Below are positions 2,335 through 45,027 of a DNA stretch of 64,000 nucleotides, piece after piece; the first letter of the stretch is position 1; each line of letters opens with the position of its first letter. The stretch lies in assembly GCA_025655455.1 (NCBI GenBank), contig JAHXIV010000050.1, forward strand, positions 79,208 to 143,207, written 5' to 3'. This stretch comes from a gamma proteobacterium symbiont of Taylorina sp. (GTDB lineage: Bacteria > Pseudomonadota > Gammaproteobacteria > GRL18). The notes beneath the pieces are model-generated. The model was not told the origin of the DNA. It worked only from the letters and a program-made list of their open reading frames with translations, and searched no databases. The position numbers were made by a program, and so were the translations under genes.

Positions 2335-4722
2335 ATGAAATTTTCTTTGAGTAAAAACACTTTTTTCAGTCTGAAATGGAAATACATGATTATTATTAGT
2401 TCTGTGATGCTCTTTTTGTATTTTATGCTCAGCTGGGGTATTTATTCTCAGGCAAAAAAGAATTTTGAGGAGCAGCTTTATGTCCAGCAATTAGAACATA
2501 TTAATGTATTGCATGATTTAATTAATTATTCCAGCCAGGTGATGGAGCAATTAATTGAGAGTCTTGCTCAATTGAAGCTGGATAATAATAAGACTGGCGA
2601 CAGGAAATTAAGTGATCTGATAGGAGAATCATGGTCAGATTTACAAATTGCCTGGGATTTAAAAAGTCTTGGTTTTTTTCACTCAGAAGCGAAAAAAAGT
2701 TTTTACTGGGGGGAACAGGAAGCTGACCTTAATAAGCTCTATCAAATTGTTCTGCAAACTGAACGTCCTCAACATCAGTTTGTATGTCAAATTCATTGTG
2801 TTTTATATATTGCTGTTCCTGTTCTCATTCAGGGTGAATTAAAAGGTGTGATCAGTATAGGGAAATCCATTGCAGAAACATTAATCAGCTTTGAAAAAAT
2901 CACTCAGGCAGATATCGGGATCTTGCTCAATATGAAAATACCAGCGATTACCAATGAAAAAAATAATCGTCCCTTATTGCAGGAACTGTTGTTACATAAC
3001 GTGTTAATAAGTCGAGTCAGCGGTGATGTCAGCACCCAGACTATACAGAAGCTCTTTAATAAGCAGCATTATTATATTAGTTTCTCTCCTGTTAATTTGG
3101 ATAGCAAAGCCAGTTTTATTATTATTAATAATATTGAACATAGTTATCAGTACCTGCAGAGTGAGCTTAAAAATATTATCTTTATTGGCTTGTTCAGTTT
3201 ATTCATTACGCTTATTTTATTATTTTTTTTACTGGAAAATGCATTAATAAGAATAAAATATTTTTCAACCGCTCTCCCTTTTTTGTCAATGACGACACCT
3301 GATCGGTATCAACAAGCCAGAGCAATTTTAGCAAAAGTAAGTCGCTCAAAATATGGATTTGATGAACTTGATCAATTAAATACTACCTCTATACAGCTCA
3401 GTGAGCAATTAGAACAGCTGGAAAATGATTCAAAAGAAAAAACACTACAAATTTCATGGATTGCATCACATGATTCATTGACAGGCTTATATAATCGTCA
3501 CTATTTTCATGGTGAATTTAAAAAAATAATAACGATAGCAAAACGTTATCAGAACAAAGTCGCCCTGTTCTATCTGGATTTAGATCAGTTTAAAATTATT
3601 AATGATACTCAGGGGCATAAGATGGGTGATCAATTACTGATACAGGTTGCTAATGTTTTAAAAAGCCAGTTGAATCGAGAATCTGATTTACTCTGTCGTC
3701 TTGGTGGAGATGAATTTGCTATTGTTACACCGATTACTGAAATTCAGGGGACTGTCTCTCTGGCTGGTAAAATTAATCAGTTAATCTATAACCTTGAATT
3801 TAATAATATAGCTCATCAGGTTGGTTTTAGTATTGGCGTCTCTATTTATCCGGAACATGGCAATAGTATTTATGAATTGTTGAGTAATGCTGATTTGGCT
3901 ATGTATAAAGCAAAAGAATCTGGTTTCAATCAATATCATATTTATGATCCCAATAATAATTATCATCAGGAACTCAATAAAAAGCTGGAATGGAAACAGT
4001 TGATAGAAAAAACTATTGCTGAAAAACAGCTTACGCTCTACTACCAACCTATTTTAAATCTGCATACACAAGTGATTAGTCATTATGAATGTTTATTGAG
4101 AATTATTAAAGAGAATGGTGAGGTGATGGGGCCTGTTGATTTTATTCAATATGCAGAAGAGCTCGGCTTGATAGAAACAATTGATATTTTGGTGATTAAA
4201 CTGGCAATTGAACAACATATTGAATTACAGAAAAAAAATAAAAGCCATCTTAAGCTGGCGATTAATTTGTCTGGTCGTTCTATTAATAATGATAAGGTAA
4301 AAGCTGAAATAAAGTCTTCGTTAAAAAATCCAGAGGTCTGCTCAGAAAAAATTATTTTTGAAATTACAGAGACTTCTGCTGTGACTAATTTCAGCTCAGC
4401 GCAAATATTTATTTCTGAAATCAGGGCACTGGGTTGTCAGGTGGCTCTGGATGATTTTGGTACAGGTTTTTCGTCTTTTTATTATTTGAAAAACATGTCT
4501 TTTGATTATATCAAGATTGATGGTGCATTCATTAAACGTATTGAAACAGATAAAGAAGACAAAATATTTGTCAAAGCTTTATCCGACGTCGCCCGTGCCT
4601 TAGGCAAAAAAACCATTGCAGAATTTGTTGAAACAGAGAATATTATTGATATATTAAAAGAACTTAAAATTGACTACGCACAAGGCTATCATATTAGTAA
4701 ACCTCTTCCAGCAATCGATTAA
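2335..4722 (+). CDS. Membrane GGDEF-EAL protein with periplasmic sensor (c-di-GMP turnover)
   Basis: The product is 795 residues. A first membrane segment lies at about 15-35, a periplasmic Cache-like sensor at about 40-280 and a second membrane segment at about 282-305. A GGDEF domain follows with an intact GGDEF motif at 457-461. The EAL domain has ECL at 585-587 in place of EAL, so the metal-binding Glu is kept, plus DDFGTG at 706-711 and KIDG. Both activities could therefore be present: cyclase from GTP and phosphodiesterase on c-di-GMP. Co-transcription with a PstS-like protein and a porin suggests that the periplasmic partner feeds the sensor (inference). Confidence 0.88.
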   Translation: MKFSLSKNTFFSLKWKYMIIISSVMLFLYFMLSWGIYSQAKKNFEEQLYVQQLEHINVLHDLINYSSQVMEQLIESLAQLKLDNNKTGDRKLSDLIGESWSDLQIAWDLKSLGFFHSEAKKSFYWGEQEADLNKLYQIVLQTERPQHQFVCQIHCVLYIAVPVLIQGELKGVISIGKSIAETLISFEKITQADIGILLNMKIPAITNEKNNRPLLQELLLHNVLISRVSGDVSTQTIQKLFNKQHYYISFSPVNLDSKASFIIINNIEHSYQYLQSELKNIIFIGLFSLFITLILLFFLLENALIRIKYFSTALPFLSMTTPDRYQQARAILAKVSRSKYGFDELDQLNTTSIQLSEQLEQLENDSKEKTLQISWIASHDSLTGLYNRHYFHGEFKKIITIAKRYQNKVALFYLDLDQFKIINDTQGHKMGDQLLIQVANVLKSQLNRESDLLCRLGGDEFAIVTPITEIQGTVSLAGKINQLIYNLEFNNIAHQVGFSIGVSIYPEHGNSIYELLSNADLAMYKAKESGFNQYHIYDPNNNYHQELNKKLEWKQLIEKTIAEKQLTLYYQPILNLHTQVISHYECLLRIIKENGEVMGPVDFIQYAEELGLIETIDILVIKLAIEQHIELQKKNKSHLKLAINLSGRSINNDKVKAEIKSSLKNPEVCSEKIIFEITETSAVTNFSSAQIFISEIRALGCQVALDDFGTGFSSFYYLKNMSFDYIKIDGAFIKRIETDKEDKIFVKALSDVARALGKKTIAEFVETENIIDILKELKIDYAQGYHISKPLPAID

Positions 4723-32061: not shown

Positions 32062-34875
32062 ATGCCAAGTTTGAATAATGTAAAAATTAAAACCAAATTA
32101 ATCAGTATGTTCTTACTGATTGGTTTATTGCCGCTTATTATTGTCGGCTGGTTTTCACAACATCAGGCTGAAACGGCTCTGGAAACCACCAGTTTTAATC
32201 AGCTCTCTGCAGTTCGTGATATCAAAAAGAATCAGCTTGATGATTACTTCCATGGAGTGGTGAATAATATTGACGGCCTGGAAATTACGGTTAATAATAT
32301 TCAAACTGAGGCTTACAACAAACTGGATGCTGTTACCAGTATCAAAAAAGCCCAGTTGGAAATGTATTTTAAATTTCGTGAAATTGATGTTAAATCATTG
32401 GCAACCAATGTGCATGTGGTGGATGCTCTGAGCAACTTTGCCCGGGCATTTAATAGTGATAGCAGTACTCCAACAGAAAATGAAAACTGGAAAGAAGCCA
32501 GTGAAGAATTTGATGGATGGTTTCAGGATTACGTCAAAATGTATGGTTATTATGATGTTTTTCTGATTTCTTCTAATGGTAATGTAGTTTATACCCAGGC
32601 CAAAGAATCAGGTCTGGGAGAAAATCTATTAACCGGAAAGTTACAAAATAGTGGTTTAGGTAAAGCATTTAAAAAAGCACTGAAGTCTGATTACGCTATT
32701 GCTGATTTTGAACCTTATGCCCCCTCTAATGGTGATCAGGCAGCTTTTATTACTGCGCCTATTATGAGTAATGGCTTTGTTTTTGGTGTGATAGGTCTGC
32801 AGCTGCCGGTTGATAAAATCAATGCTATTGTACAACGTCGTGATGGTATGAGTCACTCAGGTGAAAACTATCTGGTGGGTAAGGGGGATGACGGCAAGAC
32901 ATCGATGCGCAGCGATCGGGTGGTCAAAAAAGCTAAAATTGGTAAAGCCAAATCAGGAAAATATATTAATAAAGCTCTGGCAGGTAAACAAGGTTTTGCG
33001 ATTAAAGTGGGTAGTTCCGGTGCTGTGGAACTGGTGGGTTACTTCCCTGTAAAAGTTAAGGGGCTGGAATGGGTCTTAATTGCTTCCGTGTCTCTTGAAG
33101 AAGTACTTGCCGGTCAACTCGATAGTGATAATAAAGGCTTTTTTGACCATTATATGGAACTTAATGGCTATTATGACCTGTTTTTAATCCATCCTGAAGG
33201 TAAGATTTTTTATAGTGTAGCCAAAGAGGCAGATTATAATACCAATATTATCAGTGGTAAGTATAAAACTTCTAATCTGGGTGAAGCTACCAGAGAAGCA
33301 TTAAAAACCAAAGAGCACGTAATTGCTGATTTTGCCCCTTATGAACCCAGCAATGGTGAACCTGCCTCCTTTATTGTACAGCCGGTAATAGGTAATACTG
33401 GTGAGGTTGAACTATTATTAGCCCTGCAGCTTCCTCAGGATAAAATTAATAAGATTATGCAGGAAAGAACCGGTATGGGTGAGACAGGAGAAACCTATCT
33501 GGTGGGTACTGATAAGCTGATGCGCTCGGATTCTTTTTTAGATAAACAGGGGCGTTCAGTGAAGGCTTCCTTTGCTGGTACGGTAAAAGATAATGGTGTG
33601 GATACTGATGCAGTTGCAGCAGTCAACAGTGGAAAAACAGGTGCCACTATTATCATGAATTATAAAGGTAATTCTGTATTATCTGCTTATACTCCTTTAG
33701 ATGTTCAGGGTTTCTTTTCCTGGGTGGTGATTGCTGAAGTTAGTATGGCTGAAGTGGATATACCAATCAATGCATTGGTGATGAATATCCTGATAATTGC
33801 CGTGATTATTGCAATTATTATTTTAATGGTTTCAATTTATCTGTCTTTAAGTATTTCCAGACCATTGGTAAAAGGGGTTGCCTTTGCTGAACTGATTGCA
33901 CAGGGTGATTTAACCGGTACTCTGGATGTGGATCAAAAAGATGAAATAGGAATGCTGGCTAATGCATTACAGGATATGCTGGCTAAATTAAGAGATATTG
34001 TAACTAATGTCAAAATGTCTACGGCAAATATTTCTCAGGGTTCTTCACAATTGAGTGAAAGTGTCCAGAATCTTTCCAGTGGTGCCTCTGAACAGGCGGC
34101 CAGTGTGGAGGAAACCTCCAGTGCTCTGGAAGAAATGAGTGCCAATGTCAATCAGAACGCTGACAATGCCAAGCAGACTGAGAAAATGGCTGAAACAGCC
34201 TCTCATCAAGCAGCAGAAGGCGGGGAAGCCGTGGAAGAAACGCTTGCGGCAATGAAAAATATTGCTGATAAGATTGGTATTATCGAAGATATTGCCTATG
34301 AAACCAAGATTCTGGCATTGAATGCAGCGATTGAGGCAGCACGTGCCGGGGAGCATGGCAAGGGCTTTGCGGTGGTTGCAGCTGAGGTAAGAAAACTGGC
34401 AGGTAATAGTGAAGTGGCCGCTAATGAAATCAGTGAATTGGCCAAATCCAGTGTTTCGGTGTCTGAAAAGGCCGGTAAACTCCTCAATGAAATGGTGCCT
34501 ACCATAACTAAAACTGCTGATCTGGTGCAGGAAATTACTGCGGCCAGTGAAGAGCAGTCAACAGGTATTGGTGAAATCAACGGTGCCATGACTCAGCTGG
34601 ATTCGGTCACACAAAATAATGCGGCATTATCAGAAGAACTGGCTTCTACTGCAGAAGAAATGAATTCTCAGGCTATGTCGCTGGAGGATATGATGGGATT
34701 CTTTACCATTGATGGTTCAGGCGGTGGTCAGTTACGCTCAGCAGCTAATTCAGGTCAGCGTCGTCAACAGGCCAAAGCTCGTCCTGCTGCAAGAGCCGCA
34801 AAAGCTGTGCCGGTCAATGATAATCTGGATTTTCCGGAGGATGATAGTATTCCGGATGATTTTGAACGTTTTTAA
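32062..34875 (+). CDS. Methyl-accepting chemotaxis protein with duplicated Cache-like sensor
   Basis: The 937-residue receptor has membrane helices at about 12-32 and 571-597, a HAMP region near 598-650 and a signalling domain with hairpin tip [20 protein letters not shown]. The periplasmic part holds two related modules (about 145-275 and 360-490), each with a GYYD(V/L)FLI strand, an IADF-PY-PSNG block, LQLP-DKIN and GE-YLVG. The last residues DDFERF fit the general CheR-docking pattern x-F-x-x-F. The signalling half is nearly identical to that of the receptor at 35576-37579. Confidence 0.92.
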
Positions 34876-34993: not shown

Positions 34994-35515
34994 ATGTCTC
35001 TTGAAGAAATAATGGATGAAATTATTGTAACAGAACAGGATCAACACCTGATGTTTGACTTGTCCGGTGAAGAGTTGGCTGTTCCAGTGATGAATATCCG
35101 TGAAATTATTCGCTATGGTAAATTAACTAAAATGCCTATGGTGCCTGATTTTATCGAAGGTGTGATTAATCTGCGTGGTAACGTGGTGCCGGTTATTAAT
35201 CTGTCGGCTAAATTTGGTTTAAGCATTAATAAGTCCGATAAGCGAACCTGTATTATTATTATGGAAGTGGAAATAGCAGATGATTCTGTGGTAATGGGTA
35301 TTGTAGTGGATAAGGTCTCTCAGGTAATTGAAATACCAGATAGTGATATTGAGCCTACTCCGACGTTAGGAGCTAAAATCCAGACAAATTTTATTAAAGG
35401 GATGGCACGTATAGATGATGGCTTTATTATTATTTTAGATATCAGTCAGGTGCTGTCAGCAGAAGAAGTGGCCATTGTCAGCGGTATCCACAAGGAAACT
35501 ACGGTAAAAGAATAA
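34994..35515 (+). CDS. cheW: CheW coupling protein 1
   Basis: The 173-residue CheW-like SH3 fold has LMFDLSGEELAVPVMNIREII, IEGVINLRGNVVPVINL, VVMGIVVDKVSQVIEI and FIKGMARIDDGFIIILDI. It links receptors to CheA. AAAGGAG stands 8 bp before the ATG. A near-identical paralogue follows at 37748, so the receptor-cheW pair has been duplicated. Confidence 0.95.
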   Translation: MSLEEIMDEIIVTEQDQHLMFDLSGEELAVPVMNIREIIRYGKLTKMPMVPDFIEGVINLRGNVVPVINLSAKFGLSINKSDKRTCIIIMEVEIADDSVVMGIVVDKVSQVIEIPDSDIEPTPTLGAKIQTNFIKGMARIDDGFIIILDISQVLSAEEVAIVSGIHKETTVKE

Positions 35516-37721: not shown

Positions 37722-37747
37722 TACTAATGAAACTAGGGGAGTCTATA

Positions 37748-38269
37748 ATGTCTCTTGAAGATGTAATCGGTGAAATTGATGCAACAGAACAAGATCAGCA
37801 TCTTATGTTTGATTTGTCCAGTGAAGAATTGGCGGTTCCGGTGATGAATATCCGTGAAATTATTCGCTATGGAAAATTAACCAAAATGCCTATGGTGCCG
37901 GACTTTATTGAAGGAGTGATTAATCTACGGGGTAATGTCGTGCCTGTGATTAATCTGTCTTCGAAGTTTGGTTTAATAGTGAAAGAAGCAGATAAGCGAA
38001 CCTGCATTATTATTATGGAAGTAGAAGTAGCAGATGATTCAGTGGTGATGGGAATTGTGGTTGATAAGGTGTCTCAGGTGATTGAAATACCTGATAGTGA
38101 TATTGAACCCACTCCGTCTTTAGGAGCTAAAATCCAGACTAACTTTATTAAGGGTATGGCACGTATAGATGATGGCTTTATTATTATTTTAGATATCAGC
38201 CAAGTGTTGTCAGCAGAAGAAGTGGCCATTGTCAGTGGAATTCATAAGGAAGCCACGGTAGAAGATTAA
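37748..38269 (+). CDS. cheW: CheW coupling protein 2
   Basis: The 173-residue product differs from CheW1 at few positions and shares GKLTKMPMVPDFIEGVINLR and TNFIKGMARIDDGFIIILDI. The ATG at 37748 is chosen because GGGGAG lies 9 bp before it and the length equals that of the paralogue; the frame is open seven codons upstream. It is read as the second half of a duplicated receptor-cheW pair. Confidence 0.94.
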   Translation: MSLEDVIGEIDATEQDQHLMFDLSSEELAVPVMNIREIIRYGKLTKMPMVPDFIEGVINLRGNVVPVINLSSKFGLIVKEADKRTCIIIMEVEVADDSVVMGIVVDKVSQVIEIPDSDIEPTPSLGAKIQTNFIKGMARIDDGFIIILDISQVLSAEEVAIVSGIHKEATVED

Positions 38270-38414
38270 ATTGATTCATTCAACACCATTATCTGATCTG
38301 GAACACATGATTGATGAGCTTTTAGGCGTTAATTCTTTGCTGATTGAGAACCATCAGTCTGATACAGAGCAACTAGCTGACAAATTGTCAGATAGTCAGG
38401 AAGAGGAAATTTCT

Positions 38415-38720
38415 ATGGGAACGGGAACAATACAATTAAGTGGTGAATGTACTATTTATGAAATAGCGCAATTACATCAGAAAATTCATGATAACTGGAA
38501 AGCGGGCAGCGGTTTGGAATTAAATGCTGCAGAAGTAAGCGATGTAGATGCTTCTTTCATACAGTTATTAGCAGTCTGTAAGAATATAGCAGAATCCAAT
38601 GAACAGAGCTTTTTATTATTAAATCCTTCTGAAGTACTCAATGAAAAAATCGATGCGATGTTTATGCATGACTTCTTTTTTGCTGAAGATGATAAAAAGG
38701 GGGCGGAGTCAAATGATTGA
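38415..38720 (+). CDS. STAS-domain protein in the chemosensory operon
   Basis: The product is 101 residues from the ATG at 38415, which follows AGGAAGAGG and gives a plain STAS domain (GTIQLSGECTIYEIAQLHQK, then LNAAEVSDVDASFIQLL with the usual D-S/A-S loop, here DASF). The frame is open back to 38271 (TTG 2 bp after the cheW2 stop; ATG at 38307) with a plausible acidic sequence, so a 149-residue form is possible. Stand-alone STAS proteins next to CheA occur in several clusters; their partner is unknown. The last residues and the TGA stop come from repeat R2. Confidence 0.8.
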   Translation: MGTGTIQLSGECTIYEIAQLHQKIHDNWKAGSGLELNAAEVSDVDASFIQLLAVCKNIAESNEQSFLLLNPSEVLNEKIDAMFMHDFFFAEDDKKGAESND

Positions 38721-38791: not shown

Positions 38792-41059
38792 ATGGAAATT
38801 GATGAGAATGTACAAATCTTTATCTCAGAAGGTGAAGAGCTGCTGCAGGATATGGAAGATTCTCTATTAGAACTTGAAGAATCAGATGATCCGGAAGTGC
38901 TTAATACAATTTTTCGGGCAGCTCATACTATCAAAGGTTCAGCAGGACTTTTTGGGCTGGATCATATTATCCATTTTACCCATGTGGTTGAAAATGTTTT
39001 AGATGACATGCGTAATTGTATGATCCCGACCTCTTCTGAACTCATTACTGTATTGATGCGCTCACGTGATCATATTGTTTCTTTACTGGAAGGTATTGTT
39101 GATGATGACGAAGGGAATAAGGAAGAAGAAGCAGAGCTGATACAGCTTTTAAAGGCCTTTCAGGGTACTGTTGCAGATGAGCTGGTGGCTGCTGCTGATA
39201 GTAATGAAGTAGAAAGTAGTGCAGAGCCATTAGCTGAAGATGGAGAGGTATCTGCTGAAGGTGAACACTCGTTAACGGATCACTACCATATCTCATTAAG
39301 ACTGGGCGAAGACACTTTTCGTCAGGGCTTTGATCCGGCTTCTATGTTTCGTCAACTCAGTGATCTGGGTGAAATCAAGGAAACAGTTTTTATCCCTCAG
39401 ACTTTACCTTCTCTGGATGATCTGGATCCGGAGAGTTGTTATCTTGGCTGGGAAATTGCAATACATAGCGATTTCAGGAAAGAAAAAATTAGTGAAATTT
39501 TTCAATATCTGGATGGCTGCCATCTGTCTATTCTGGCACCGCAAAGTCATTTTTCAGAATATAAACATCTGATTGAACAATTGCCGGAAGAAGAAATGGC
39601 ATTGGGACAAATCCTGCTGCAAACCGGTAGTTTGACACAAGGCGAATTGCAAAGAGTACTTAATCAGCAAAAAGAAAATATTGAATCGGGGGAGCTGGAA
39701 TCAGAAAACCGCACGGGTGATCTGCTTGTTGAAAACCAGGTGGTGCAAAAAGAGGTGGTTGAAGAAGCTTTAAATAAACAGACCAAAGTCCGTGAACAAA
39801 AACAAAAAGCCCTGAGCTTTGTTAAAGTAGACTCCGAGAAACTGGATAAGCTGATTAATCTTGTCGGCGAGCTGGTTATTAATGGTGCCAAGCTGAATAT
39901 GATTACTGAAAATATTGCTGATGAAGAACTCAATGAAACCATGGAAGGGATGACGATGTCCCTGGAAGATCTGCGTGAAATTGCTTTAGGTTTACGTATG
40001 GTGCCGATTGGTACGACTTTTAATCGTTTTCATCGGGTTATCCGCGATACTTCAAAAGATTTAAATAAAGAGATTAACCTGGAAATCTATGGTGCAGATA
40101 CAGAACTGGATAAAACTGTGATTGAAAAGATTGGTGATCCATTGATGCATCTGATCCGTAATTCCATGGATCATGGTATTGAGATGCCTGATGATCGCCA
40201 GCTTGCAGGTAAAAGCAGAGAAGGAACAATAACGCTTCAGGCACAACATGAAGCGGGTTATATTACCATTCAGATTAAAGATGATGGCAAGGGGTTGAAT
40301 CCTGAAATGTTATTAGAAAAAGCCATAGAAAAAGGCATTGTTAAGGACAATCAGAAACTCAGCAAACAGGAATGCCTTAATTTAATCTTTGCTGCCGGCT
40401 TTTCTACTGCCACTGAGATCAGTAATATTTCCGGTCGTGGTGTGGGTATGGATGTGGTACGTCGGAATATTGAATCACTACGCGGCAGTGTATATATTGA
40501 CTCTGAACTGGGAGTGGGTACGACCATTACTATTCAATTACCATTAACACTGGCAATTATTGATGGTTTTAATGTCAGCATTGATAGTGAATTTTATATT
40601 TTTCCTTTAGATATGGTTCATGAATGTCTGACACTCACGCCTTCTCAAATTGAGGAAGCATCGGTGCATAACTATATCACCTTAAGAGAAGAAGTCCTGC
40701 CGATTGTACATCTTAAAGAATATTTTGATGTAGAACAGAGTGAACAATACAATGAAACCTATATGGTACATAAGGGCAGAGAACGCCATAATATCGTCGT
40801 AGTTGAATTTGCCAATAAAAAAGTCGGTTTAATTGTCGATGAACTATTAGGTGAAGTGCAGGCGGTTATCAAACCACTGGGACGTGTATTTAAAGGTCTG
40901 TCCGGTTTTGCCGGTTTTACCATCCTGGGCAGTGGCATGGTAGCACTGGTGCTGGATATCCCCAGTCTTATTAAAGAAGTAGTGGGCAATGAGCATAAGC
41001 ACTTTGATTCATTAAAACAAAAATCGGTGGCATCAAGGGGTAATCGGGTAGTGCATTGA
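38792..41059 (+). CDS. cheA: Chemotaxis histidine kinase CheA
   Basis: The 755-residue kinase has an Hpt domain with phospho-acceptor His45 in AAHTIKGSAG, a linker, then an atypical middle: an alpha/beta module about 160-245 (P2-like) and a helical-pair module about 270-345 (ILLQTGSLTQGELQRVLNQQ and DLLVENQVVQKEVVEEALNKQ) like MshEN/GspE N-termini. P3 starts near 346 (KLDKLINLVGELV), the ATPase has DPLMHLIRNSMDHG at 449 and GRGVGMDVV near 548, and a CheW-like P5 ends it. It phosphorylates the nearby CheY and CheB. Confidence 0.95.
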   Translation: MEIDENVQIFISEGEELLQDMEDSLLELEESDDPEVLNTIFRAAHTIKGSAGLFGLDHIIHFTHVVENVLDDMRNCMIPTSSELITVLMRSRDHIVSLLEGIVDDDEGNKEEEAELIQLLKAFQGTVADELVAAADSNEVESSAEPLAEDGEVSAEGEHSLTDHYHISLRLGEDTFRQGFDPASMFRQLSDLGEIKETVFIPQTLPSLDDLDPESCYLGWEIAIHSDFRKEKISEIFQYLDGCHLSILAPQSHFSEYKHLIEQLPEEEMALGQILLQTGSLTQGELQRVLNQQKENIESGELESENRTGDLLVENQVVQKEVVEEALNKQTKVREQKQKALSFVKVDSEKLDKLINLVGELVINGAKLNMITENIADEELNETMEGMTMSLEDLREIALGLRMVPIGTTFNRFHRVIRDTSKDLNKEINLEIYGADTELDKTVIEKIGDPLMHLIRNSMDHGIEMPDDRQLAGKSREGTITLQAQHEAGYITIQIKDDGKGLNPEMLLEKAIEKGIVKDNQKLSKQECLNLIFAAGFSTATEISNISGRGVGMDVVRRNIESLRGSVYIDSELGVGTTITIQLPLTLAIIDGFNVSIDSEFYIFPLDMVHECLTLTPSQIEEASVHNYITLREEVLPIVHLKEYFDVEQSEQYNETYMVHKGRERHNIVVVEFANKKVGLIVDELLGEVQAVIKPLGRVFKGLSGFAGFTILGSGMVALVLDIPSLIKEVVGNEHKHFDSLKQKSVASRGNRVVH

Positions 41060-41142: not shown

Positions 41143-43020
41143 ATGTGGAAAAATCTAAAAATATTCAGCAAAATTATGCTGGGATTCGGAGTTATTTTAA
41201 CCATTCTGGTGGTGATCAGCAGCTGGTCTTATATTAATATTAATGGCATGATCAATGATGGCAAAGAAGTCATTGATGGTAATAAACTGCGAGGGAATAT
41301 CCTGCAGCGTGAAATTGATCACCTGAACTGGGTGAATCAGTTAAGTCAGTTCCTCAATGATGATCAGCTTAATGAATTGGGGATTCAGCTAGATCCCACT
41401 CAATGTAAACTGGGCAAATGGTATTATGGTGCAGGACGTAAGCAGGCTGAACTGCTGGTGCCTGAACTCAAAGAATTACTGGATGCTCTGGAAGAACCGC
41501 ATGGTCATTTACATGAATCTGCAGGTACAATAAAGGAACTCTATCAGGCTGCTGATGCGACATTACCCACCCAATTAGCCAAACTTGAAGCTGATCATCT
41601 TGCTTGGTCCGGGAAAGTACAAAATGCTGTATTAACTAAACAGAACACTATTAAGGTTCAGCATGACCCCAGAAAGTGTAATCTGGGCAAGGTGATGTAC
41701 GGGGCGTACGCCGAAGCTTTCAGAAATGATAATCCTGATTTTGATCAATTGTTTACTGCAATTGAACCTGTTCATAACAAATTGCATCAAACAGGCAGTA
41801 AGATTAATGAAGCTCTGAAGTCAGGTGACTATGAATATTCAATGAAGCTTTATCAGACTGGTGTCGTACCTGCACTGGCTGGTATTCGAAAAGGCTTATC
41901 TGCTATGCAGGACTTAGCTCTGCACAAGCTGGAAGGAAAAACAAAGGCTAATGAGGTCTTTGTTCAGCAGACACAGCCGCTATTAGCTGAATTGATTGAT
42001 CTTTTTCATGAAATTGATAAAACAACAGCTGGAAATATCTTAACAGAAGATCAGATGGTGGATAATGGTCTGCAAACCCGTCAGATGGTATTGATGCTAT
42101 CGATTGTTGCCATTATCCTGGGTATTATTATTGCACTAATACTTGCCCGTGCAATTTCTCAACCTATTTTACAGGCAGTTGCTTTTGCCAAAACCGTCTC
42201 AACAGGTGATTTAACAGACAAACTGGAAATTAATCAAAAAGATGAAACTGGTCAGTTGATTAATAGTCTGGATAGTATGGTGGACAATTTGCGTGAAGTT
42301 GTTTCCGGTGTACTGACTGCTACGTCCAATGTATCACAAGGTTCCACACAATTAAGTGAAAGTATACAAACCTTGTCCAGCGGTTCCTCAGAGCAGGCGG
42401 CCAGTGTAGAGGAAACTTCCAGTGCGCTGGAACAAATGAGTGCCAATGTGAACCAGAATGCGGATAATGCCAGACAGACTGAACAAATGGCAAGTACCGC
42501 GTCGCATCAGGCAGAAGAGGGTGGTGAAGCAGTTGGAGAAACTGTCAGAGCAATGAAAGAAATTGCTGATCGTATTGGTGTCATTGAAGATATTGCCTAT
42601 GAAACCAAAATTCTGGCGCTCAATGCAGCTATTGAAGCAGCACGTGCCGGAGAGCATGGTAAAGGTTTTTCCGTAGTTGCTGCTGAAGTGAGAAAGCTGG
42701 CGGGTAATAGTGAAACTGCAGCTAATGAAATCAGTGAACTGGCTAAAAACAGCGTGGCTATTTCTGTAACTGCAGGGGAATTACTTGAAAAAATTGTACC
42801 CAATATCCAGAAAACAGCGGATCTGGTACAGGAAATTTCAGCCTCCAGTGATGAACAGGCTACGGGAGTCAGTGAAATCAGCGGTGCCATGAATCAACTG
42901 GATACGGTGACACAAAATAATGCAGCATTATCTGAAGAACTGGCATCTACTGCAGAAGAGATGAATTCTCAGGCGATGGCACTGGAAGATATGATGAGTT
43001 ATTTTACAATTAAAAAATAG
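41143..43020 (+). CDS. Methyl-accepting chemotaxis protein with two periplasmic CZB domains
   Basis: The 625-residue receptor has membrane helices at about 9-29 and 314-337. Between them lie two tandem CZB (chemoreceptor zinc-binding) domains: ligands His60, Cys88, His120 and His124 with Trp63, and His152, Cys179, His211 and His215 with Trp155. HAMP and a signalling domain ([20 protein letters not shown]) follow. Unlike the two other long receptors it has no DFERF tail. CZB domains sense zinc or hypochlorous acid in known cases; the signal here is inferred to be zinc or an oxidant. Confidence 0.9.
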
Positions 43021-43062
43021 TCTTAACGGGCAATGAATGACAGCAGTTGAACAAGGAAAAAA

Positions 43063-43884
43063 ATGAACCAATTAGCAACATTTGTGCTAAATAATAAAGA
43101 ATTTGATAAAATTCGTCAGCTTATCCATAAAAAAGCTGGTATCTCAATGTCTGATGCTAAGCGTTCATTAGTGGCAGGCCGCTTAAGGAAACGCCTGGTA
43201 GCTCTGAAACTGGACAGCTATGAAGCCTACTATCAATTCCTGAAAAAAGATGAGCAGGCGGGTACGGGAGAACTACAGCGTTTTATTGATCTGCTGACGA
43301 CTAATGAAACCTGGTTTTTTCGTGAAGAAAAACATTTTGAATTTTTAAAACAGCAATTGAAAGATCGACCCATTGCAAAAGAAATTAACATATGGAGTGC
43401 GGCTAGTTCCAGTGGGGAAGAACCCTATAGTATTGCTATGACTATGGCTGAATCAATGGGAATGACTAGTCCCTGGAAAGTGTTAGGCACTGATATCTCA
43501 ACTGAGATTCTGGCAAAAGCCAAAAAAGGCCTTTATGTGAAGGATAAAATTAAAGGTTTATCAAATACATTAAAACGTAAATATATGCTTAATGGTGTAC
43601 GTGATTATGCAGATTATCTGGCTATTGTACCGGAATTGAAAAGTAAAATGAATTTTCAACATTTTAACTTGCAAAGTTCACCACTACCCGGTATAAAGTT
43701 TGATTTTATTTTCTGTCGCAATGTATTAATTTATTTTAATCAGGAAGATAAGAAAAAAGTGATTCATCGATTGGCAGGATGTTTAAAAACCGGAGGATAT
43801 TTCTTTCCCGGGCATTCAGAATCACTGCATGGTTTATATGATGAATTGACAACAGTAGCACCATCGGTTTACCAGAAAAGATAG
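43063..43884 (+). CDS. cheR: CheR receptor methyltransferase
   Basis: The 273-residue SAM enzyme has an N-terminal helical domain (KKAGISMSDAKRSLVAGRLRKRL) and a catalytic domain: TTNETWFFRE, IWSAASSSGEEPYSIAM, GTDISTEILAKAKKG and FCRNVLIYFN. It methylates receptor glutamates. It is followed by an array of eight heptamers before cheB. Confidence 0.95.
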   Translation: MNQLATFVLNNKEFDKIRQLIHKKAGISMSDAKRSLVAGRLRKRLVALKLDSYEAYYQFLKKDEQAGTGELQRFIDLLTTNETWFFREEKHFEFLKQQLKDRPIAKEINIWSAASSSGEEPYSIAMTMAESMGMTSPWKVLGTDISTEILAKAKKGLYVKDKIKGLSNTLKRKYMLNGVRDYADYLAIVPELKSKMNFQHFNLQSSPLPGIKFDFIFCRNVLIYFNQEDKKKVIHRLAGCLKTGGYFFPGHSESLHGLYDELTTVAPSVYQKR

Positions 43885-43953: not shown

Positions 43954-45027
43954 ATGGCAAAAATTAAAGTAATGGTGGTAGATGATTCAGCATTAGTGCG
44001 TAAGCTAATGACAGAGTTATTAAATACAGACAGGGATATTGAGGTGATTGCTCAGGCACCTGATCCGGTATTTGCTCTGGAAAAACTGAAAAAAATCAAA
44101 CCGGATGTGATTACTCTGGATATTGAGATGCCCAGGATGGATGGCGTGACTTTTTTAGGGAAATTGATGTCTACCACCCCTATTCCTGTGGTGATCTGTT
44201 CCAGTCTGGCAGAAGATGGTGCAAAAACAACGTTGGAAGCAATAAAAAATGGTGCAGTAGATATCATTACTAAACCCAGAATGGGGGTGAAAGGATTCTT
44301 AAAAGAATCTTCCATGCAGATTATTGATGCAGTGAAAGGTGCTGCTCGTTCAAGGGTTAGGAAAAGAGTCAAGCCGCTGGAGATTCAGGCAAAAAATACT
44401 GCGGATGTTATTTTGGCTCATAGTAATAAATCCATGACGGAAACCACAGAAAAAATTATTGCCATTGGAGCTTCTACTGGAGGAACCCAGGCGCTTAGAG
44501 ATGTTTTATCAAGAATGCCGGCCGTTTCTCCCGGTATTCTGATTGTGCAGCATATGCCGGAAAAATTTACTACAGCATTTGCAGAACATTTAAATGATCT
44601 TAGTGAAATGGATATTTCAGAAGCTAAAAAAGGAGATAGACTAATACCGGGTAAAGTGCTAATTGCACCGGGTGGACAACATATGCTGCTGAAACGCAGC
44701 GGGGCTTTTTATCAGGTTGATGTCATTGATGGTCCTCTGGTGAGCCGGCATCGCCCCTCAGTGGATGTGTTGTTTCGCTCAGTGGCACGTTATGCAGGAC
44801 GTAATGCAGTGGGTTGTTTAATGACCGGTATGGGAGATGATGGTGCACAGGGCTTACTGGAAATGAAAAATGCAGGTAGCAGGACTATTTCTCAGGATGA
44901 AGCCTCCAGTGTGGTTTATGGTATGCCGCAGGAAGCCTGGAAAAAAGGAGCGTCAGAAGCTCAGATATCACTGAATAAAATCCCTCAGACATTATTGGAT
45001 GCCTGTGCGGGAAAACGAATAAAATAA
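43954..45027 (+). CDS. cheB: CheB receptor methylesterase / deamidase
   Basis: The 357-residue product has an N-terminal receiver (VDDSALVRKL, phospho-Asp in LDIEMPRMDG) and a C-terminal esterase with the catalytic triad Ser in IGASTGG, His in IVQHMP and Asp in TGMGDDGAQG. It demethylates receptors when phosphorylated by CheA. No GGAG-type ribosome site is seen; the heptamer array stands in its place. Confidence 0.95.
   Translation: MAKIKVMVVDDSALVRKLMTELLNTDRDIEVIAQAPDPVFALEKLKKIKPDVITLDIEMPRMDGVTFLGKLMSTTPIPVVICSSLAEDGAKTTLEAIKNGAVDIITKPRMGVKGFLKESSMQIIDAVKGAARSRVRKRVKPLEIQAKNTADVILAHSNKSMTETTEKIIAIGASTGGTQALRDVLSRMPAVSPGILIVQHMPEKFTTAFAEHLNDLSEMDISEAKKGDRLIPGKVLIAPGGQHMLLKRSGAFYQVDVIDGPLVSRHRPSVDVLFRSVARYAGRNAVGCLMTGMGDDGAQGLLEMKNAGSRTISQDEASSVVYGMPQEAWKKGASEAQISLNKIPQTLLDACAGKRIK

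Follow-up and report, generated by a model that had tools for sequence, protein, structure and literature searches.

What does a chemoreceptor detect when its entire sensor appears to consist of two CZB zinc-binding domains placed outside the cytoplasm? The question is raised by an open reading frame at positions 41143–43020 (+ strand) of the window, the 64,000-nucleotide stretch of DNA analyzed here. This frame is intact, with the start and stop originally assigned to it, and from the ORF and its Pfam matches it encodes a methyl-accepting chemotaxis protein (MCP) of 625 amino acids with a tandem, apparently nested CZB sensor. Hydropathy places two transmembrane segments at residues 7–25 (TM1; 41161–41217) and 316–334 (TM2; 42088–42144). 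A Pfam scan matched the CZB family (PF13682) twice, with a whole-protein E-value of 1.3e-26 and the best stretch at residues 60–130. The first domain (CZB1, residues 60–130; 41320–41532) scored 57.0 bits and the second (CZB2, residues 152–221; 41596–41805) scored 45.5 bits, both above the gathering cut-off of 29.4. TM2 is followed by a HAMP domain (residues 334–385; 42142–42297) and by an MCPsignal domain, with its best stretch at residues 448–608 (42484–42966); all of these features are on the + strand. Since the sensor lies between TM1 and TM2 and is followed by HAMP and MCPsignal, as is standard for MCPs, the CZB pair is assigned to the extracytoplasmic side by homology with HAMP-containing receptors. 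The original prediction of two complete periplasmic CZB domains as the whole sensor is thus upheld. The other 13 above-cut-off CZB domains of the same genome are single and are either C-terminal to any predicted transmembrane segment or part of proteins that have none.

Most CZB domains are indeed single and cytoplasmic, as had been claimed: 384 putative periplasmic domains were counted among 10,140 CZB sequences, or ~3.9% (PMC8262984). The members of this small periplasmic subgroup resemble the window protein in being MCPs with a CZB domain between TM1 and TM2 and in carrying the same 3His/1Cys ligands. They differ at position 2 of the Cys motif, which is Ala or variable in the subgroup and K/N in the window protein, and we found no tandem or nested pair described among them (PMC8262984). 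Within the open-access literature, to which our search was confined, we found no report of a paired (tandem or double) CZB sensor and no experimental study of a periplasmic CZB receptor. Overall, the receptor is a real, conserved, and apparently undescribed version of a known kind of sensor; its architecture is nearly certain, and its function we infer.

The eight putative zinc ligands, His60, Cys88, His120, and His124 in CZB1 and His152, Cys179, His211, and His215 in CZB2, were all found at the positions previously named. Each is invariant in all 24 sensors of an alignment whose members are 41–67% identical to the window sensor, and 46 of the 286 alignment positions are invariant in total. 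The remaining histidines vary (His122 is present in 7/24 sensors, His174 in 1/24, His261 in 1/24, and His289 in 18/24). Because the relatives were selected partly by the requirement for two Cys motifs 91 residues apart, neither this spacing nor the two cysteines, which are the only ones in the protein, can be counted as independent evidence. Conservation of the histidines, in contrast, does count as such. A profile search that imposed no spacing requirement also returned full-length matches in the same and in further genomes. The two domains are related copies, as indicated by 26 identical residues out of 75 (35%) and an alignment score of 114, far above the 24 ± 4.3 obtained with shuffled sequences. 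Each bundle would hold one zinc ion through three His and one Cys. More than one transition metal can be accommodated by a site made of His and Cys, and the two sites might bind and report Fe, Ni, Cu, or Co in the periplasm; we consider this very improbable, given that the 3His/1Cys sites of characterized CZB domains bind zinc (PMC8262984).

The two CZB domains had been described as a tandem pair. They do follow one another in sequence, but CZB2 is apparently nested in CZB1, between its last two long helices, as judged from structural models and from homologues. Three single-CZB receptors (L091, L122, and L123) align as the two-CZB sensor minus approximately residues 147–264 (41581–41934), the inserted module that contains CZB2. 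Long gaps were cheap in this alignment, and the junction is supported by residue matches on either side. Approximately residues 265–314 (41935–42084) form the returning helix, which in the models and the alignment closes the CZB1 bundle before continuing toward TM2. One of the single-CZB receptors, L091, clusters with the two-CZB receptor L087 (tree support 93/96; both belong to family f84) and retains the flanking 'LPxFLA' linker, suggesting that CZB2 was probably lost in its lineage.

AlphaFold2 models of the sensor, which were based on four sequences, gave pLDDT values of 84.2 and 81.6 and pTM values of 0.57 and 0.52. The modeled helices span residues 2–72 (TM1, continuous with the first sensor helix, through His60), 109–135 (containing His120 and His124), 141–164, 198–226, 230–298, and 302–344 (through TM2). 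In VIA-align comparisons, the CZB domain of Escherichia coli DgcZ (3t9o), which has the same ligand set as CZB2, matched CZB2 with Z 11.9 over 116 residues at 2.8 Å (model 108–232). The whole sensor was matched by McpS (2yfb; Z 12.8, 223 residues, rmsd 8.3), by PilJ (7zjr; Z 11.2, 230 residues), and by the TorS sensor. Compact four-helix bundles aligned either to model 108–230 or discontinuously to 16–266, the pattern expected from nesting. The CZB fold is thus identified in CZB2 through 3t9o, and in CZB1 it is indicated by the discontinuous four-helix-bundle matches. These structural matches provide support and not proof, since Z values of 11–14 are not exceptional for helical bundles and a Foldseek search with the model gave no match at E ≤ 0.001. 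Among PDB sequences, neither phmmer nor a search with the A2 profile found a meaningful relative of the sensor.

Cytoplasmic CZB domains react to zinc and/or HOCl through the 3His/1Cys site (PMC8262984, PMC6715182), and a 2026 preprint argues that Salmonella McpA gauges redox state indirectly, through the availability of zinc (PMC13370339). From the sequence, we favor the view that the window receptor reports zinc occupancy to the CheA–CheW–CheR–CheB system around it and would in this way sense either the availability of zinc or redox/sulfide chemistry; this reading, including the zinc binding itself, is somewhat better than an even bet. One argument against it comes from DgcZ, a cytoplasmic CZB protein with sub-femtomolar affinity for zinc (PMC8262984): a site as tight as this might simply stay zinc-loaded in the periplasm. 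The zinc could then be structural, with some further ligand serving as the signal. The predicted shape of the whole sensor is compatible with such a role, since McpS (a helical bimodular sensor), PilJ, and TorS may share its double four-helix-bundle form and the signals read by McpS are organic acids rather than a metal; many positions other than the zinc ligands are also among those invariant in the alignment. However, the HBM profile (PF16591) gave no match in the Pfam scan of the protein at E 1, and assignment to the HBM family was dropped on this ground. Characterized CZB domains, moreover, sense via the zinc site itself (PMC8262984, PMC13370339), and we regard a purely structural zinc as unlikely.

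If zinc occupancy is the signal, the receptor would act as a transmembrane homodimer, dimerization being assumed by homology, and its periplasmic sensor would comprise two stacked CZB four-helix bundles with one zinc ion each. The membrane-proximal CZB1 bundle would be formed by the helix continuous with TM1, the helix bearing His120 and His124, and the helix returning to TM2, and the distal CZB2 bundle would be inserted among these helices in the nested packing predicted by the models and homologues. Loss or alteration of zinc occupancy at either site, whether through zinc depletion or through attack of oxidants or sulfur species on its single Cys, would loosen that bundle. Both bundles would share the long helices that run to TM1 and TM2, so that this change could pass through HAMP to CheA–CheW, and adaptation would proceed via the adjacent CheR and CheB. 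What the receptor senses, and which way the response runs, we infer. TlpD and McpA also couple a CZB domain to an MCP signaling domain, but they are soluble proteins with a single, cytoplasmic, C-terminal CZB, and DgcZ differs from the window receptor in being cytoplasmic, with a single CZB domain and a diguanylate cyclase output.

The partners required by this scheme are encoded alongside the receptor, all on the + strand. Directly upstream is CheA (38792–41059), with Hpt, dimerization, HATPase, and CheW domains; directly downstream is the CheR methyltransferase (43063–43884), which starts 42 bases past the receptor stop (window 42960–43063), followed by the CheB methylesterase (43954–45027). 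These assignments and that of a STAS-domain protein (38271–38720) come from Pfam, and two CheW proteins (34994–35515 and 37727–38269) are annotated in the window, which contains further MCPs near the receptor. In two sister species a CheW gene follows the receptor gene. A C-terminal tail ending in FERF, similar to the CheR/CheB-binding pentapeptide (PMC7390727), occurs in the three nearest homologues and in the MCPs at 32062 and 35570 but is missing from the window receptor, which therefore may rely on neighboring receptors for its adaptation. The sensor of the MCP at 32062–34875 contains two stretches matched by dCache_1.

The original prediction that such a receptor is uncommon is borne out in the Gammaproteobacteria and fails in another class. 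In the order of the window's genome, the full sensor occurs in 4 of 24 genomes, all within its genus, and across 369 gammaproteobacterial genomes one further MCP with the full sensor was found (G628). By contrast, 37 of 48 genomes in the class of G061, probably Magnetococcia, encode the full sensor, nearly always in one copy. Their receptors share 41–51% sensor identity with the window protein and agree with it in length, ligands, and nesting site. They differ in the C-terminal pentapeptide-like tail, present in 13 of the 20 examined, and no description of them was found in the open-access literature searched. The G061 homologue is likewise set among cheA, cheR, and cheB homologues. A putative double-zinc-site nested sensor that is conserved this widely provides a clear test of CZB sensing outside the cytoplasm. 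Further tandem CZB pairs may occur, both in this phylum and in others, as our search for them used the A2 profile, which is biased to its own family, and the survey with a CZB profile covered this phylum. In the sensor tree, the four gammaproteobacterial sequences form one group at the end of a long branch, and most of the deep forks lack support. With tblastn, no sensor match was found on plasmids and a single weak partial match was found on viral contigs.

Several variants of the sensor were also encountered. A gammaproteobacterial protein with HisKA and HATPase domains (G731; L140) carries a two-CZB-like sensor in which the first CZB alone exceeds the Pfam cut-off, and the same is true of the sensor at L139. 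In another gammaproteobacterial genome (G653; L141 1508–4066), an MCP has an sCache_2 domain (residues 184–326) between parts of the second CZB. Sensor homologues of ~300 amino acids, with one N-terminal hydrophobic stretch and most zinc ligands missing, are encoded in the G061 class (L124, L125, L126, and L127; minus-strand ORF near 3500–4600); in G085 one of them lies near the two-CZB receptor.

Of 16 tested genomes with the receptor or near it, 15 had dsrA above the cut-off, and the gene occurs in both classes, consistent with sulfur metabolism in the two groups. This observation bears on a direct sensing role for the cysteines, which the original prediction had raised alongside zinc, whereby HOCl, polysulfide, or a similar species would modify Cys88 or Cys179 and release zinc, the metal being a cofactor and not the signal. 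Oxidation of the CZB cysteine by HOCl has been reported for TlpD and DgcZ (PMC6715182, PMC8262984), and the two invariant cysteines, with no others in the protein, would suit such chemistry. HOCl is, however, an oxidant of host inflammation with no evident role here, and dsrA is also found in relatives without the receptor, so its link to the receptor is not specific. We therefore give little credence to direct oxidant or reactive-sulfur sensing and retain zinc occupancy as the preferred signal.

MamK, the magnetosome actin, was over the NCBI cut-off in 12 of 12 tested genomes of the G061 class, which is thus probably magnetotactic. Since the receptor is near-universal in this class, it is a candidate redox input of magneto-aerotaxis there. 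A broader and doubtful extension is that the two sites of the nested periplasmic sensor gauge zinc speciation as a stand-in for the oxic–anoxic or sulfide boundary, and that magnetotactic cocci retain this sensor as a core receptor for navigation, in common with sulfur-metabolizing gammaproteobacteria; the specific tie to the oxic–anoxic boundary is offered purely as a hypothesis. For the window's own genome, a link to magnetotaxis was considered and we do not assert it: its MamK-like gene is below cut-off and lacks obvious magnetosome-like neighbors, and such genes do not track with the receptor within the genus. This MamK-like actin (G000:C4:89042-90037; L135 9022–10035) scores 384 bits against a cut-off of 400, and its neighbors do not resemble a magnetosome cluster. 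In another genome of the same family (G018; L136), a MamK gene over cut-off adjoins genes for a CxxCH protein and transporter-like proteins, an arrangement that suggests a magnetosome cluster.
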